Origin: Candidatus Poribacteria bacterium
GTDB taxonomy: Bacteria > Poribacteria > WGA-4E > GCA-2687025
NCBI GenBank assembly: GCA_028818695.1
Contig: JAPPNK010000020.1
Location: 1-33,671 of the forward strand
Reading direction: 5' to 3'
DNA: 33,671 nt
Within the stretch, counting starts at the first letter, position 1. Each line of letters starts with the position of its first letter. The translations under genes and the position numbers were made by a program. Under the pieces are notes generated by a model that did not search any database, was not told the origin of the DNA, and was given only the letters and a program-made list of their open reading frames with translations. This document shows, in pieces, positions 6,250 to 33,671 of this stretch.

Positions 6250-9200
6250 TCAACGCTCCTCCGTCACATTCACCTCTAAAGGCGCAGCGTAGGCGACCCG
6301 CTTCGGGTTGTAATACTCATACGCCTTAGACGCCCCCGTTTGAGCGCGCAGCGGAAACTTTGCCCGAAGGCTGTATTCAAACGCGACGGTCTGACGCGCG
6401 GAAACCTCGTCAAAATATAGAATCACTTGACGCGGCGCGATCTCAAACTTCTGAACGACCCCGTCCGACACCAGACGTTCAAAATCGGCGGGTTGAACCG
6501 CAAAGCCCGGCGGAATGCCCAGGTCAATGACAACCATCTTTGCGTTCATGTTCTGCGGGTTGCGGAAAACGCAGGCCGCCTTGACCGTCTCATCCTTAAC
6601 CAAACGCGACCTGTCATACGAAACGGACACATTGAACGCGGGCAGCGGCGGCGCTATCTTCGGCTGATTGCCCCACGGCATATAGAAGCGCCCGAAGATC
6701 TGAAACGCCGGCCGCCCTGTCCCGTCCATACGAATCTCCACCTCATGCGCCCCCGATTTCAGCCCGCCGTTTCCGTCCGACAGGGCGAGTAGATGCGCAA
6801 CGTCGCTGTTCTGCGGCTCGATGCGTATCTGCCCCATTTCGCGACCGTTCAGCAGAACGGTCGCCGTTCCGTCCGCCTCGCCGACCGCGCCGGACGATCC
6901 CTTCAGCAACGCCTTCAGCGCTAGGACGGTCGCCTGCGTCGTGTGCCATGTCCCGCGCGGGTCGCGCATCGACATCAGATAGGTCAAGGCGCGCTCGGTC
7001 AACATCGGATCGCGCCGCCAACGCAGGAGCGCCAGCGCTGCTAAGCCTGTCGCCTCAAGATTGGCGGCTTCTTCGCGGGCGTAGGTCATCGTCGGCAAGC
7101 CGCTTGTCCAATAGGAACCGTCTCCGTCGCGCTTCGCCATCGCGATCAGACGCGCCATCGCGTCGTCGACGGCGGCATCGTCCGGCGCGGCGTTCGCCAG
7201 CGCGTTGCAGACCATCGCCAGCATATACGGGTCTTCGGCGGCTTTCCAGTGCGCCTTCAGGTAGTCAACGCCCTTCGTCAGCGGTTCGCCTTCGTAGCCG
7301 CTGGACGCCAAAGCCCAGACGATATACGCTGTCGGCAGCAGTTCGCTCGACTGAATGCGCCCCCAGACGCCCCGATGCAGATACGCCGCGTCCGGCGCCC
7401 ATGAGCCGTCCCTGCGCTGCGTTGAAACAAGCCACTGCTGCGTCCGCTTGATAAGGGCGGGATCCACCTCATGAACGCGCGACATGTCGGCAAACTCCAT
7501 AAGCCCGTACGCCGTCAAGATCTTGTTTGCGGGCGCATTTCCAAACCAAGAAAACCCGCCCCCGTCCACCTCAAACGAGAGCAAACGCTGATAACCGAGG
7601 TTGATATACTGTTCCGCCTTCATCTGGATTTCTGGGGAGATCTGCTCCGTCTCGCGCATATAATCCAGCGCCAGGATGTTCGGATAAGTGGTGGAGCTGG
7701 TCTGTTCAAAACAGCCGCTCGGCATGCGCAAGATGGCGTCTAACCCGTCCGCAAGTTGGCTAAAGGCGCCAGGGTAGATCTTCACAAACAGCTGGCTTGC
7801 GCCAGGGACAGCAGAGGCGGGTATCTGCGCCGTCCGCTTCGCCGCTTCAGGTCCAAGCCGCCCGTTCATGGTCAGCTCATATTTCCGTCCGTTCGGCGTC
7901 ACCTGCAGCTCTCGGCGCACCGCGTCGCTCATGGTCGACCCGTAGGCGCGCGCTGTGAACGCATGCCGCCCATGTTTCTCCGCCTTGACGCGAAAATACC
8001 TGACCGTCACTTCGCCCGGCTCCAGCTCGGCGCGCATTTCCAAGCCGCTCAACGGCTCGAACCAGTCCGCCTCGTCGATCTCAAGCCGTATCGTCTGCGG
8101 CGTTTCAAGGTAATTGTAAAGCGCGATCGGCATGCTCACCTCGTCGCCCTGCGTCAGTTTGGACGGGAGATCGATGTCGATGAAGAAGTCTTGAAAGACG
8201 CGCACGCCCGCCGACGCGCTGCCCAGCAAACCGCCCTTGGTGGAGGCGGACGCCGCCAGTTGCCATGTGGTGATCGAGTCGGCGAGCGGCACGTTCAGCT
8301 GCGCATGTCCTTTTTCGTCGGTCAGGAGCGACGGCATGACAAACAGCGTCTCTGGGAAATACTCGCGCAGTCGTGGAGGCGCCGCGCTGTCCGCCGGAGC
8401 CGCCGAAGCGTCTTTTTCTAACAGGAGATTCGTTAATCCAGCCGTTTTGAATTGTCGGGCGCGCGATGCGGAAACCGGGGAGTTCACCGCCACTACAGGC
8501 GCCCTCCCCAATACAGACGATCGCGCGGAGAATCTCCGCAACCGCCTCCCCACGATGGCGAAGCGCCCCATTCCAAAGCCCAAATTTTCCTGCTCAAAAA
8601 GTTCTTCGTCAGCGGGGACTCTGCCACTCGCGATATAAAGCCAAATGTCGTCTTCCGTCCCGAAACGGCCGTCCGGTCCCATGCTCATTGCGAACGATTG
8701 ATGATATTCATTGGACTGGAAGCTCAAACGGTTGCCCCATGGGTCCAGCAGCGCCTCATCAGGCAGATGATCCCCTGCCATGATCTCCATGAATATATCC
8801 CTGCGTTCAGAACCTGTCGTCCCTTTGAGCGCGTTTTTGAACGCTTGCTTGAACGGCTCAAATAAGCTCTCAGCGACGGGGCGCAGCGCTTCCTGAAGCC
8901 CCTCGGCTGTATGGCTCGTCGATTGCTTCGCCAACGTGTATTCAGGGTGCGCCGTGTCGACCGCGGCGAAGAGCAGGCGCGCCGCTTGTTCGCGCCTCTG
9001 CGCGCCGTTGGGCGCCGCAGCCTTCCGCGGCATGGGTCCCGCAATCAATTCCGGCTGCAGCTGGGTTATCTGGACGCGCGGGGTCAACAGCTCCTTTTCC
9101 AATAAGAAGAAGACGCGCTCAAACCCAGGCTGCGCCTCCACCCGCGCGAACACCGCCTCATCCACCATCTGAACGCCCAGCGCAGCCAAAACGGGGTTGC

Positions 9201-11715
9201 CTTTTCGGTTCGTCACCTGAAAATTGATCTGCGCCTCTTCGCCCGGAAGATAGACGTTCTGATCAGGGCGAATCTCGATCGTCAGATCGTCCGCCGGCGA
9301 CACAAAGGCGCGGCGGGTGTCCCGGCGTATCTGTCCGTCTGGAAAGGTCTGGTATGCGTGGAGCGTCAAGGAGCCGAAATCGCCAGGTCCGACCGGCATC
9401 GCCGCCTGCGCGCGTCCTTCCTTCAGCTCCGCCGACGCCGTGTAGATCGTCTGCCCTTCCCGTATTGCGTCCACATAAACCCAGCCCGACTTGCCCGGCG
9501 AAAAGACGGTCATCTCCAGCCGATCGCCCGCCTTGAGAAGCGTTTGATTGGGTCGAAGCAGCAGCGCGTTCGTTTCCGTCTCAAGGTTGATGATTCGCGA
9601 AAGGGCGTTGCCTGCCGCGTCCTTCGCTTCAAGGCGCGCCTCCGCCGTTTCGTCTGGGGTTAAGCGAAACAGGGCGGAACCCATGCTGTCGGTCTCCGCC
9701 GTCTTTGTTTCGCCGCCAAGAGTCAATGACGCCTTTACTCCCTCCGCCGGCGATCCGTCAGGATAGGAGACCACAGCGTAAATCTCATTCTCAACATTCG
9801 GAATCAACCGTCCGCTTTCGGGCAGAAGAACGGCGTTCAACGGCGTTTCAACAACCGGCGCCGAAATCGATACCGACTCGGAATGTCCAGTTCCGTCCGT
9901 TACGGTCACAGCAAAGCGGGCGAAGCTGTTCCCCTTCTCCAACGGCAAACCTGCAAACAGTTTCGGCAGCTGAATCTCAAATGCGCATTCTCCAGACTCG
10001 TTTGTCTTCCCTTCAAACTTCGCAAACTGATCCCAGCCGACATCAAACTTCGAAGCGTCTATATCGACCGACCCCGCCGAGACAGGCTTTCCGAAAAAAT
10101 AATCTGCCTGTATCGTCCCTGAAACCGTCTCGCCGGGCAGATAGTAAGCGCGCTCCAGCGTCGGCTTCACCTTGAACTTCGGCAGCGCATACCGTTCTAC
10201 CGATGCGCTTTTTTGCGCCGTCTGTCCGTCTGAGACGACCCGCGCCGTGTAGGTTCCCATGTTCACCTCGTGCGCCAGCTGAAACTCTGCCGACGCAATG
10301 CCGAACTCGTTGCGTTCCGCCTCGCGCTTGAAAACCTTGTTTCCCTTCGAATCCTCCACCTCAAAAACGACGGAGCCGCCGTCCTGCGCTTGAAGGTCGC
10401 CGGCGCGCAGCGACAACGCCCGAAGGCGCATTCTCTGACCCGGCTGATAGGTCGGCTTGTCGAGCGTCAACATGATCTTCTGCCGCGCCTCGATGCGCAT
10501 CTCCGACGTCAGCTCCTCGTCCCCCCTCTCCGTCCGGACAAGAACGCGCAGCTGGGCATCGCCCTGCGCGTCTTTTGGCAGCTCAAAACGCAAACGCGCC
10601 GATCCGTCCGCGCCGGTCTCCCCCTTTGCCTCCGCAAGCGTCTTGCCGTCCTGCGACGCCTCTGCCGACACATTCGCGCCCTCATACGGATTTTCTTGAT
10701 CGTCTTTCACGAAAACGCGCGCCTCCGCTGGACTGCCTGCAACCCATGTCGTCTGACCCTTCAACTCCGCCCGAATCGATCCGATCAGCTCCGACAGGGC
10801 GAATGTGCGGCGATACGGCGCCGGTCCCATTCCCTCCACGCGCGTCCAGAGAAGGTTTGGCTGTAGCGCCATATCCTTAATGGACGCTTTGAGGCGCAGC
10901 GTCCAAGACCCGCCCGCCCGTTTCGCCGCCTTTGAGCCGCGCGCCAGCTCCTTTCCGTCCGCGCCGTACACGACAGCGCGCATCCGATTCACATACTTCG
11001 TTCCGTCAGGGACTGTCGCTTCAACAATCAGATGGTTTTTCGATCGCTTCGCTGAAACCAGCACAGGCGGCGCCGGCAACATGCGCCGATGAGGCGACAG
11101 CAAAGCCGCCGCTAACACAGGCTCCTCCGCAATCGATAAGGGGGTTTTGCTGAAAATGACCGCCGCGCGAATCTTGTCGTCGATCTGGACGACCTGCGCA
11201 TTGTGGTCATAAACGCGCTGGATCTGGGTATTTTCCAGACGCATCCACCATTCCGGGACGATCTTCTCGATGGAAACATCCAGCAGCGGGCGGTTTGGGA
11301 CGACGCTTTGAAGCCATCCGCGCATCTTTTCTCCTGCCCTGTAGTCCCGGCAGTCGATGATGAGCATTCCGCCGTTTTTTAGATATTCCGCCGTTTTTTC
11401 GCGGTCGATCGGGACATCGCCGATGTTGGCTCCAGCCGTAATGAGCGCGACCGGCGCCGTTTTTGGGTATTTCGAATCGGGCGCTTCTGAAATGATCATA
11501 CGATGGTCAGCGAGTGCCGCCTCCTGAATCGTCTTCAGTTGCGGCTTTGCGTCTCCTAGGACGATCTCATGCAGGACAAAGCTGCCGCCGAACAACCGAT
11601 CTCCAATGTATATCCGATTTCCGTCGTATGTGGCGACAGGCGTTATTTGAGAAGGAGCGGAAGCGCCGACCAGCGTCAACGCCGCAAGCGCAACGGCAGT
11701 GTAAGATTTCATCAT
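6250..11715 (-). CDS. Alpha-2-macroglobulin family protein with intact thioester motif
   Basis: An 1821-residue exported protein. Bacterial alpha-2-macroglobulins trap attacking proteases: cleavage of a bait region exposes a Cys-Gln thioester. A Sec signal (residues 1-22) lacks a lipobox Cys, so it is secreted or periplasmic rather than a lipoprotein. Residues about 40-190 resemble a DUF4159/glutamine-amidotransferase-like domain (NGGMLIIDCRD). Repeated macroglobulin beta domains follow to about 900. The A2M core begins at REYFPET (1117-1123). The thioester GCFEQ has C1335 and Q1338, inside an alpha/alpha barrel that ends near 1620, followed by a receptor-binding-like end. Between the last bait-side domain and the core is an insert (about 900-1040) with DPWGN (991-995) and GPDGRFGTEDD (1013-1023), which resembles the C-terminal calcium-binding part of GspG pseudopilins. 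The usual partner pbpC is not adjacent. AAAGGA precedes the start. Confidence 0.93.
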   Translation of the reverse strand: MMKSYTAVALAALTLVGASAPSQITPVATYDGNRIYIGDRLFGGSFVLHEIVLGDAKPQLKTIQEAALADHRMIISEAPDSKYPKTAPVALITAGANIGDVPIDREKTAEYLKNGGMLIIDCRDYRAGEKMRGWLQSVVPNRPLLDVSIEKIVPEWWMRLENTQIQRVYDHNAQVVQIDDKIRAAVIFSKTPLSIAEEPVLAAALLSPHRRMLPAPPVLVSAKRSKNHLIVEATVPDGTKYVNRMRAVVYGADGKELARGSKAAKRAGGSWTLRLKASIKDMALQPNLLWTRVEGMGPAPYRRTFALSELIGSIRAELKGQTTWVAGSPAEARVFVKDDQENPYEGANVSAEASQDGKTLAEAKGETGADGSARLRFELPKDAQGDAQLRVLVRTERGDEELTSEMRIEARQKIMLTLDKPTYQPGQRMRLRALSLRAGDLQAQDGGSVVFEVEDSKGNKVFKREAERNEFGIASAEFQLAHEVNMGTYTARVVSDGQTAQKSASVERYALPKFKVKPTLERAYYLPGETVSGTIQADYFFGKPVSAGSVDIDASKFDVGWDQFAKFEGKTNESGECAFEIQLPKLFAGLPLEKGNSFARFAVTVTDGTGHSESVSISAPVVETPLNAVLLPESGRLIPNVENEIYAVVSYPDGSPAEGVKASLTLGGETKTAETDSMGSALFRLTPDETAEARLEAKDAAGNALSRIINLETETNALLLRPNQTLLKAGDRLEMTVFSPGKSGWVYVDAIREGQTIYTASAELKEGRAQAAMPVGPGDFGSLTLHAYQTFPDGQIRRDTRRAFVSPADDLTIEIRPDQNVYLPGEEAQINFQVTNRKGNPVLAALGVQMVDEAVFARVEAQPGFERVFFLLEKELLTPRVQITQLQPELIAGPMPRKAAAPNGAQRREQAARLLFAAVDTAHPEYTLAKQSTSHTAEGLQEALRPVAESLFEPFKQAFKNALKGTTGSERRDIFMEIMAGDHLPDEALLDPWGNRLSFQSNEYHQSFAMSMGPDGRFGTEDDIWLYIASGRVPADEELFEQENLGFGMGRFAIVGRRLRRFSARSSVLGRAPVVAVNSPVSASRARQFKTAGLTNLLLEKDASAAPADSAAPPRLREYFPETLFVMPSLLTDEKGHAQLNVPLADSITTWQLAASASTKGGLLGSASAGVRVFQDFFIDIDLPSKLTQGDEVSMPIALYNYLETPQTIRLEIDEADWFEPLSGLEMRAELEPGEVTVRYFRVKAEKHGRHAFTARAYGSTMSDAVRRELQVTPNGRKYELTMNGRLGPEAAKRTAQIPASAVPGASQLFVKIYPGAFSQLADGLDAILRMPSGCFEQTSSTTYPNILALDYMRETEQISPEIQMKAEQYINLGYQRLLSFEVDGGGFSWFGNAPANKILTAYGLMEFADMSRVHEVDPALIKRTQQWLVSTQRRDGSWAPDAAYLHRGVWGRIQSSELLPTAYIVWALASSGYEGEPLTKGVDYLKAHWKAAEDPYMLAMVCNALANAAPDDAAVDDAMARLIAMAKRDGDGSYWTSGLPTMTYAREEAANLEATGLAALALLRWRRDPMLTERALTYLMSMRDPRGTWHTTQATVLALKALLKGSSGAVGEADGTATVLLNGREMGQIRIEPQNSDVAHLLALSDGNGGLKSGAHEVEIRMDGTGRPAFQIFGRFYMPWGNQPKIAPPLPAFNVSVSYDRSRLVKDETVKAACVFRNPQNMNAKMVVIDLGIPPGFAVQPADFERLVSDGVVQKFEIAPRQVILYFDEVSARQTVAFEYSLRAKFPLRAQTGASKAYEYYNPKRVAYAAPLEVNVTEER

Positions 11716-21753: not shown

Positions 21754-22557
21754 ATGGACAAATTTGACAGCAACGCTGCAGATACGCTAGTGTCGCGCAT
21801 ACTTGAAGAGCTGAGCGCAAATCCAGAGGCGAAATGGAAACTTTTCAACGCGCTGCTTTCAGATGAAATGAAGCAGCTGCCGAGTCGCGTCAGCAAATTG
21901 CAAGACGATGTGGATGAGCTGAAGGAAGATGTGGGTGAGCTGAAGGAAGATGTGGGTGAGCTGAAGGACGATGTGGGTGAGCTGAAGGACGATGTCCAAG
22001 AACTGAAGACAGACATGGCTGAGGTAAAGACGGACTTGGCTGAGGTAAAGACGGACATGGTCGAGGTAAAGGCGGATATGGCTGAGGCAAAAAGAGACAT
22101 CCGAGAACTAAAGAACTCCAACGCAGAAATGAAAGGGCAAAACCTTGAGTTCAAGCTGGGCGTGCGGGCTAAAGCGTACGTCTGCCAATGGCTAAGCTTG
22201 CGAAACCCCGTTGTCCTGTCAAGTTACGTCGACCATTTGGAACAGGAATTAGATGCGGCGGTCGAGAAAGCGAAACGGGAGGGACGCATCAGCGGCCGAC
22301 AAGAAACGCGCATCATCGAAACCGACGTAATCCTGCGGGCAAAGCTCCGATCCGACGGCTCGCCAGTATGCGTAGCGGTCGAAGCTTCCTATACAATCGA
22401 TGCGAACGACATCAACCGCGTCAAAGAATCGGCAGACGCGCTCCATATCGTTACGGGCTTGGCGGCAATACCGGTCGCCGCGGGCTATATCGTTTCCGAC
22501 CAAACAGAGCGTTACGCTGAAGAGTTGGGCGTCGAGATATGTCTCGTATCGTCCTAG
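21754..22557 (+). CDS. Coiled-coil protein with PD-(D/E)XK-nuclease-like C-terminus
   Basis: A 267-residue cytoplasmic protein. Residues 1-50 are helical. Residues 55-117 are nine near-identical heptads (ELKEDVG, then EVKTDMA types) that form a parallel coiled coil. Residues about 125-267 resemble the restriction-endonuclease-like domain found in DUF3782-type proteins: TDVILRAKLRSDG, then VCVAVEASYTI, then a helix DINRVKESADAL and a VAAGYIVSD strand. The expected E-x-K appears as E-A-S, so catalysis, if any, would need the Lys from the following helix. Such proteins are common, often in many copies, in some uncultured and cyanobacterial genomes; their role is not established. The gene has its own promoter and overlaps the glutaredoxin gene tail to tail by 4 bases. 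Confidence 0.75.
   Translation: MDKFDSNAADTLVSRILEELSANPEAKWKLFNALLSDEMKQLPSRVSKLQDDVDELKEDVGELKEDVGELKDDVGELKDDVQELKTDMAEVKTDLAEVKTDMVEVKADMAEAKRDIRELKNSNAEMKGQNLEFKLGVRAKAYVCQWLSLRNPVVLSSYVDHLEQELDAAVEKAKREGRISGRQETRIIETDVILRAKLRSDGSPVCVAVEASYTIDANDINRVKESADALHIVTGLAAIPVAAGYIVSDQTERYAEELGVEICLVSS
21916..22104 (+). repeat. Tandem 21-bp repeats encoding heptads
   Basis: Nine units of 21 bp run in frame through the coiled-coil gene. The first four units (21916-21999) are nearly identical in DNA, including synonymous positions, while later ones diverge. This points to recent expansion by slippage or unequal exchange, changing coiled-coil length by whole heptads. Confidence 0.85.
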
Positions 22558-32550: not shown

Positions 32551-33312
32551 CTATCGATAGAGCGCGCCGACGCGCCGCCGGTAATCGTCATACGATTCTT
32601 CAAACATCTCCGCCGCCCGTTCCTTGCCGACATGGACAGGGCTGGTCAACACCTTCGGCGGCTGACCCGCGCGCGTCAAACGCTCCGCCACCTCCGCCTT
32701 CAAAGCGTTCGCAATGAAACATGCGGAGACGCTTGAAACGGGGCTGACAGGCGTCTCAAGCCCGTCGATCCAGACGACCGCGTCGCCCGGCGGAACGCCG
32801 TTGTCAATGACAATGTCGCACACATCGGCGAGCGTCCTGTTTGGGTTAGCGCGGTTGCTTTCAAGCGAGGTGACAGCGATCGTCGTCATCCCGATTTCGT
32901 TCGCGCCTTCCGCCATCTCTATCGGCACAAGGTTCGATCCGCCGTTCGAAAACACGACCATGGCGTCCTCTTCGGACAGGACGAAATTGCGGAGGATGCG
33001 CTTTGCCAGCCCCGGCGCGTTTTCCAGCGCCATCGCCTGCCGCTGCCCGTTTGCGCCGACAACCTGCGTATGAAAGGTCAACGACAGCTCCACAATCGGA
33101 TGAAAGCCGGGAAAGCTGCCGTATCGGGGATAAATCTCCTCAACAGGAATGCGCGAATGGCCTGAGCCGAACAGATGCGCAAGCCGCCCTTTTAAGATGG
33201 CGGACGCGCACACATCTGCCGCGCGTTGAATGCGCTTCGCCTCGCTCTCGGCGACGCGGTTGATCAGCTCAAGCGTGGAGCGAAGATACTGTTGCGTGGG
33301 CGATTCGGACAT
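32551..33312 (-). CDS. SIS domain sugar-phosphate-binding protein (UPF0309-like)
   Basis: A 253-residue protein with a sugar isomerase (SIS) fold. Key segments are HLFGSGHSRIPVEEIYPRYG (the phosphate-binding loop with GSGHS), VVFSNGGSNLVPIEMA (the second Ser-rich loop) and MTTIAVTSLES. It resembles the UPF0309 group, thought to handle N-acetylated amino-sugar phosphates, and is neither a GlmS nor an RpiR. The ATG at 33312 has GAGG a few bases upstream. It is the first gene of a likely operon with the SDR and the small membrane protein. Upstream (33313-33671) lie no further genes, only the inverted repeat and tandem array described below. Confidence 0.88.
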   Translation of the reverse strand: MSESPTQQYLRSTLELINRVAESEAKRIQRAADVCASAILKGRLAHLFGSGHSRIPVEEIYPRYGSFPGFHPIVELSLTFHTQVVGANGQRQAMALENAPGLAKRILRNFVLSEEDAMVVFSNGGSNLVPIEMAEGANEIGMTTIAVTSLESNRANPNRTLADVCDIVIDNGVPPGDAVVWIDGLETPVSPVSSVSACFIANALKAEVAERLTRAGQPPKVLTSPVHVGKERAAEMFEESYDDYRRRVGALYR

Positions 33313-33454: not shown

Positions 33455-33460
33455 ACGCTT

Positions 33461-33671
33461 TGTGTCTCATAATTTGGGATAAGTGGGACACAACCGATTT
33501 TGCGTCCCACTTATGAGACTCAAATCGCTTTGTGTCGCATAACCGGGGAAAAGTGCAACGCAACGGATCTCGTGTTGCACACATGCAAATCGAATCGTTT
33601 TGTGTTGCATAAACAAGGAAAAGTGCAACGCAACGGATCTCGTGTTGCACACATGCAAATCGAATCGTTTT
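33461..33671. repeat. Tandem array of 70-bp units with nested covarying hairpins (runs off window)
   Basis: Three units begin with TGTGTCTCAT (33461), TGTGTCGCAT (33531) and TGTGTTGCAT (33601). The period is exactly 70, and the first base of a fourth unit ends the window. Units 2 and 3 differ at 4 of 70 positions; unit 1 differs from unit 2 at about 21. Each unit holds an inner hairpin (unit positions 23-29 with 44-50) and an outer stem (4-10 with 53-59). In unit 1 the inner stem extends to 11 perfect pairs (positions 19-29 with 44-54). The paired bases change together between units. No open frame is conserved, as 70 is not a multiple of three. Confidence 0.9.

Follow-up and report, generated by a model that had tools for sequence, protein, structure and literature searches.

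The stretch of DNA analysed here (the window) comprises 33,671 nucleotides from a Candidatus Poribacteria bacterium and belongs to contig C21 of a 3.57-Mb draft genome (G000). Its end is occupied by a tandem array of 70-bp units, placed directly 3' of a gene that codes for a Fic protein of the SoFic type. SoFic is a widespread phage-defence toxin encoded by a single gene, and how it is controlled is poorly understood. The half-site core, the spacer and the alternating 30/40-bp phasing of this array are common to the arrays found in relatives of the gene. The features of the locus are the following (window positions, unless the contig is named):

33459-33472, minus strand: outermost half-site of the array, TTTGTGTCTCATAA (TTATGAGACACAAA on the minus strand)
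33482-33511, no strand: dyad 1, head to head, AGTGGGACACAAC-CGAT-TTTGCGTCCCACT; core 7/8, arms symmetric at 11/13
33512-33541, no strand: dyad 2, 30 bp on, TATGAGACTCAAA-TCGC-TTTGTGTCGCATA; core 8/8
33552-33581, no strand: dyad 3, 40 bp on, AGTGCAACGCAAC-GGAT-CTCGTGTTGCACA; degenerate core, 6/8
33582-33611, no strand: dyad 4, 30 bp on, CATGCAAATCGAA-TCGT-TTTGTGTTGCATA; core 7/8
33622-33651, no strand: dyad 5, 40 bp on, identical in sequence to dyad 3
33461-33671, no strand: 70-bp units of the earlier note, part of an array that extends beyond the window and has its end 3' of the SoFic gene
G000:C21:33864-34991, minus strand: SoFic-type fic gene, 375 aa, outside the window, with the array at its 3' end
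G000:C21:34988-38239, minus strand: type IIG restriction-modification gene, 1083 aa, whose end overlaps the fic start
32551-33312, minus strand: SIS-domain gene, the next gene 3' of the array, oriented like fic

The dyads of the window start at 33482, 33512, 33552, 33582 and 33622, that is, in steps of 30, 40, 30 and 40 bp, and the 70-bp array was detected by Tandem Repeats Finder (TRF) at 33523-33671. When the sequence was followed beyond the window end, as an earlier note on this DNA had advised, the array was found to continue, to meet a scaffold gap of 100 N (G000:C21 33672-33771) and to resume after it with 58 bp that are 98% identical to the array. That note had described a 7-base word, present four times per unit in alternating orientation, which changes coordinately from unit to unit while hairpins are kept. 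The words and base changes of units 1-3 are all present at the unit positions it named. The compensation at pairs 26-47, 27-46 and 7-56 is confirmed as well, as is the break of pair 6-57 in unit 2. Recent tandem duplication did take place, as units 2 and 3 differ very little. Neither a second match to the array DNA nor the paired-word pattern was found anywhere else in the genome. The single word RTGNRACACAAA has three other genome matches that were inspected, all within coding-like sequence. A dispersed repeat family was rejected: the genome has no further copy, and none that convinces was found in 57 relatives.

The PADLOC SoFic profile covers the adjacent Fic protein from end to end (residues 14-373, E 1.7e-105), and solved SoFic structures also match it by sequence; the NCBIfam SoFic model matches it too, under the equivalog cut-off (165 vs 550 bits). 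P0001 carries the HPFxDGNGRxGR catalytic motif (HPFLDGNGRLGR) and, as SSRIEGT, the (S/T)xxxE(G/N) N-terminal inhibitory motif of class II Fic proteins. The predicted structure of a homologue with 56% identity to this Fic (L107, pLDDT 93) fits SoFic 3zcn over its full length with a TM score of 0.83, and its C-terminal domain follows the order helix-strand-helix-helix-strand-strand, which is that of a winged helix. Judged by profile and fold, the adjacent protein is a SoFic-type Fic AMPylator of an anti-phage family, and a C-terminal winged helix-turn-helix (HTH) is predicted for it from the model of L107.

Arrays of the same design beside related fic genes

Arrays of the same design are present in Fic relatives with 38-56% identity from several bacterial lineages. 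In all of them head-to-head half-sites ending in CAA(A/G) are separated by a 4-bp spacer, and the resulting dyads lie alternately 30 and 40 bp apart. The array is 3' of fic in close homologues (L056, L044, L085-L087, L093, L094, L175 and L179) and likewise in the Fic homologues of viral contigs (43-56% identity), while homologues at 38-40% identity have similar arrays placed 5' of fic. Within the same class, the Fic homologue nearest in sequence (L056, 51% identity) has its 3' array built on a different word, TTAGCAACAAA, and interrupted by a scaffold gap. Such gaps thus lie within arrays both of this genome (33672-33771) and of its class relative G010, the genome of L056, so these arrays may be long, and draft genomes under-count them. 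At L093, L094 and L179, fic comes after hsdS of a type I restriction system and the array stands between fic and hsdR (as read from the sequence in L179).

When 84,980 genomes were searched for the inverted words as a single-hairpin pattern, there were 11 matches, with only L044 beside fic; among the others inspected, L042 looks like an ordinary intergenic hairpin. The one match that is clearly related is TTTGTGTCTCATAAGTGAGACACAAACTCCGTTGTGTCTCACTTATGAGACACAAA on a Thermomicrobiaceae contig, also just 3' of fic. No close Fic homologue was found in phage records, and one of two dyad-pattern scans of viral contigs had no matches and the other a single non-Fic match. A lone perfect-core dyad, ATGAGTCACAAAGTGTTTTGTGGCTCAT, was seen at L173:7562-7589, on a viral contig where no Fic homologue was found nearby. 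In a literature search, with subscription papers and preprints outside its reach, no description of arrays of this kind came up.

Counts of the signature CAAR-N4-YTTG were compared with an expectation from dinucleotide shuffles; this core-based count was used instead of arm symmetry, in which one centre counts at several spacers. Close homologues (n = 12) have 13 signatures in 3' flanks (0.7 expected), two in 5' flanks and one in coding sequence. Mid homologues (n = 12), which are not fully independent because several are related alphaproteobacteria, have 15 in 5' flanks (0.4 expected) and none in 3' flanks. The counts in the opposite flanks and in coding sequence do not depart, or hardly depart, from expectation. 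With spacers other than 4 bp the signature stays near expectation. Distances between dyads fall at 29-31, 39-41 or 69-71 bp for 31 of the 35 pairs of the mid group and for 7/7 pairs of the close group (0.1 expected in each). This layout is common to loci that have no tandem duplication, so the length of 70 bp reflects the period of the layout and not merely the size of a duplication. Two plasmid loci fetched later fit the same rule: Shinella L191, with dyads at -102 and -32, and Rhodobacter L192, with dyads at -102, -62 and -32.

The CAAR-N4-YTTG signature is not enriched in 82 more distant SoFic-type loci. Inverted words are present within 200 bp 5' of fic in 81 of these 82, with 381 inverted-word centres in 5' flanks vs 72 in coding sequence and 125 in 3' flanks, and the words vary from lineage to lineage. 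As separate observations, L110 (fic at 35% identity) has an AT-rich inverted-word array (TAGTCCAATATAT) 3' of fic that lacks the CAAR-N4-YTTG core, and in the Thermus plasmids L090 and L196, where fic has a helicase-related gene on one side and a DUF1156 gene on the other, the fic start is immediately preceded by inverted words, among them TTGTGATAC and GTATCATAAG.

Base pairing and rival explanations

The coordinate change of the words had been read in the earlier note as a sign of selection on a DNA cruciform or RNA structure, or on an array of protein-binding sites, rather than of neutral repeats. A structure kept by base pairing, such as a type III-style repeat RNA antitoxin, would agree with the position of the repeats beside a toxin gene, with some real compensating changes and with the folding of unit 1, which beats shuffles strongly (z -5.1 to -5.9). 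Unit 2, however, folds no better than shuffles (z -0.7) and unit 3 folds in another pairing (z -2.9), so the hairpin of unit 1 is not kept in either of them. Over 18 arrays with 61 dyads, the outer words of one dyad agree at 4.30/9 positions, and swapping right arms among dyads of the same array leaves the agreement at 4.30/9 (P = 0.54). Half-sites agree at 4.37/9 positions within an array vs 2.95/9 between arrays. This likeness within arrays, with no effect of arm pairing, argues that the identity of the half-site is selected and its pairing is not. The near-helical 30/40 phasing, the occurrence of arrays on either side of fic and a terminator-like hairpin between the fic stop and the array (from a weak scan, one found and 0.6 expected) also speak against a structured RNA, and no Rfam covariance model reached its gathering score in the window; a tRNA search found none. 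Selection on a cruciform or RNA structure is thus contradicted by the arm swap and by the folds of units 2 and 3; this explanation is largely refuted and very unlikely. The coordinate change itself is real in the sequence, although it does not require base pairing and would be expected for half-sites of one symmetric protein. A fixed CAAR-N4-YTTG core, a fixed 30/40-bp phasing and a freely varying outer word agree with the other possibility raised in the note, an array of protein-binding sites.

A neutral or selfish intergenic tandem repeat, in which the arms resemble each other through duplication and gene conversion, would account for the near-identity of units 2 and 3 and for an array long enough to break the assembly. 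It is highly improbable as a full account, given that the same spacer and phasing are conserved across loci without tandem duplication, at 38-56% protein identity, and that the array is unique in its genome. The sites could instead belong to another protein, be it an independent regulator or a mobile island's tyrosine recombinase, with Fic only a passenger. An integrase does lie near some of the loci (L087, L175) and inverted half-sites are typical for many DNA-binding proteins, but fic is the sole gene seen in common among loci whose neighbours vary (hsdS/hsdR, type IIG methylase, WYL protein, FRG protein, plasmid genes), and both core and phasing go with fic on whichever side of it, 5' or 3', the array stands, which makes this alternative distinctly unlikely. 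That a small antitoxin protein similar to AS1, which was reported to counteract Sofic toxicity (PMC12249575), is encoded in the 3' region is hardly credible: no small reading frame is common to the 3' flanks of close homologues, and small-frame matches are confined to L093, L094 and L179, where they agree with the start of hsdR.

A probable phased operator for SoFic

The array is probably a set of helically phased DNA sites for the winged helix of the adjacent SoFic. Each putative half-site would span about 13 bp, made up of an outer word and the conserved CAA(A/G) end; two of them would face each other head to head across 4 bp, and dyads alternating at 30 and 40 bp would build the 70-bp unit, whose tandem copies here would represent an expanded operator. 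In the simplest account, the C-terminal winged helix of SoFic itself would read the dyads. Less certain are the consequences. An array 5' of fic, as in most relatives, would autorepress a protein reported to be toxic, and the toxicity of E. coli Sofic makes tight repression plausible. An array 3' of fic, as here, might control the next gene (hsdR in three relatives), tether Fic to the DNA, or both. Where the array stands between fic and hsdR (L093, L094 and L179), hsdR could be under its control, and this arrangement suggests that the Fic protein may control restriction genes.

Several observations weigh against such an operator. Similarity of half-sites correlates with that of winged helices (Mantel r 0.27, P 0.008), with r falling to 0.04 for pairs under 60% identity, and the Fic part correlates with half-site similarity as well (r 0.33). 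The correlation is driven by close relatives, and matching of words to recognition helices is thus uninformative below 60% identity. A single Fic would need to recognise ATGAGAC as well as ATGCAAC here (L087 likewise has ATGAG words alongside ATGCAAC words), dyads 3 and 5 have a weak core, and autorepression leaves the 3' position unexplained. A Novosphingobium homologue with 52% identity has no clear array on either fic flank. The Fic enzyme CbFic2 bound random DNA tightly (PMC10628234), so proteins of the family may bind DNA non-specifically. Finally, the signature was noticed and counted on the same loci, and only L191 and L192 are independent of that choice.

The operator code (half-sites ending in CAAR, a 4-bp spacer and 30/40 phasing) provides a candidate target for the C-terminal DNA-binding domain of SoFic. 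It is conceivable, though rather doubtful, that the array is the DNA partner of the toxin, with SoFic dimers on the phased sites holding the AMPylator inactive, or setting the level of the restriction gene that follows, until phage infection frees SoFic. If so, the DNA would be the antitoxin or the sensor of a one-protein abortive-infection system tied to restriction-modification.

Regarding the neighbouring genes, the SIS-domain gene is probably outside the module, and it is no obvious target for control by the array. Farther away in the window, two in-frame 21-bp repeat tracts (21904-22091) lie in an open reading frame with coiled-coil-like character (weak Lpp/ZapB-like matches), and positions 6250-11715 encode a bacterial alpha-2-macroglobulin-like protein of 1821 aa with a TED domain.

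Comparison with known systems

Two kinds of systems resemble the locus in gene layout. C proteins are small HTH controllers of restriction-modification operons that have no enzyme domain. The arrays of L093, L094 and L179 lie between fic and hsdR, where the sites of such a controller would be; unlike C proteins, Fic has an enzyme domain. In ToxIN-like type III toxin-antitoxin loci, the repeats beside the toxin gene act as RNA. Repeats also adjoin a toxin gene here, but without a pairing constraint, and the structured-RNA repeat units of type III arrays were not found (arm-swap P 0.54; unit 2, z -0.7).

By profile and fold, the adjacent protein belongs to Sofic, described as a single-gene anti-phage system in which the wild-type protein is toxic, so strongly in E. 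coli Sofic that cloning behind one lac operator proved impossible (PMC12249575). AS1, a 47-residue protein encoded downstream of the E. coli Sofic, was reported as its antitoxin; the accessible part of that study names this protein and no DNA sites, whereas an array of DNA dyads is found here. As of PMC10628234, neither DNA binding by SoFic nor a target for its C-terminal domain had been demonstrated. CbFic2 of Coxiella burnetii combines a Fic enzyme with an HTH, and DNA binding induces its (de)AMPylation activity, although, unlike the case described here, it was examined with random DNA and no specific site is known (PMC10628234).

The closest precedent is CccR of Yersinia pseudotuberculosis, a Fic protein with a C-terminal HTH for which autorepression and binding to an inverted repeat have been shown, and which was described as just 29% identical to SoFic over 45% coverage (PMC9755527). 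Its operator is one inverted repeat in the promoter, with 10-bp half-sites, AGATAATCAT-N26-ATGATAATCT (PMC9755527). The two systems share an inverted repeat beside the gene of a Fic-HTH protein. In contrast to CccR, the present locus has multiple dyads, each head to head across 4 bp, phased at 30/40 bp and placed 3' of the gene, and neither the half-site word nor the spacing nor the position of the CccR operator is found. Autorepression of a Fic-HTH protein through an inverted repeat is therefore already known from CccR, and what differs here is the array, its layout and its frequent position 3' of fic.
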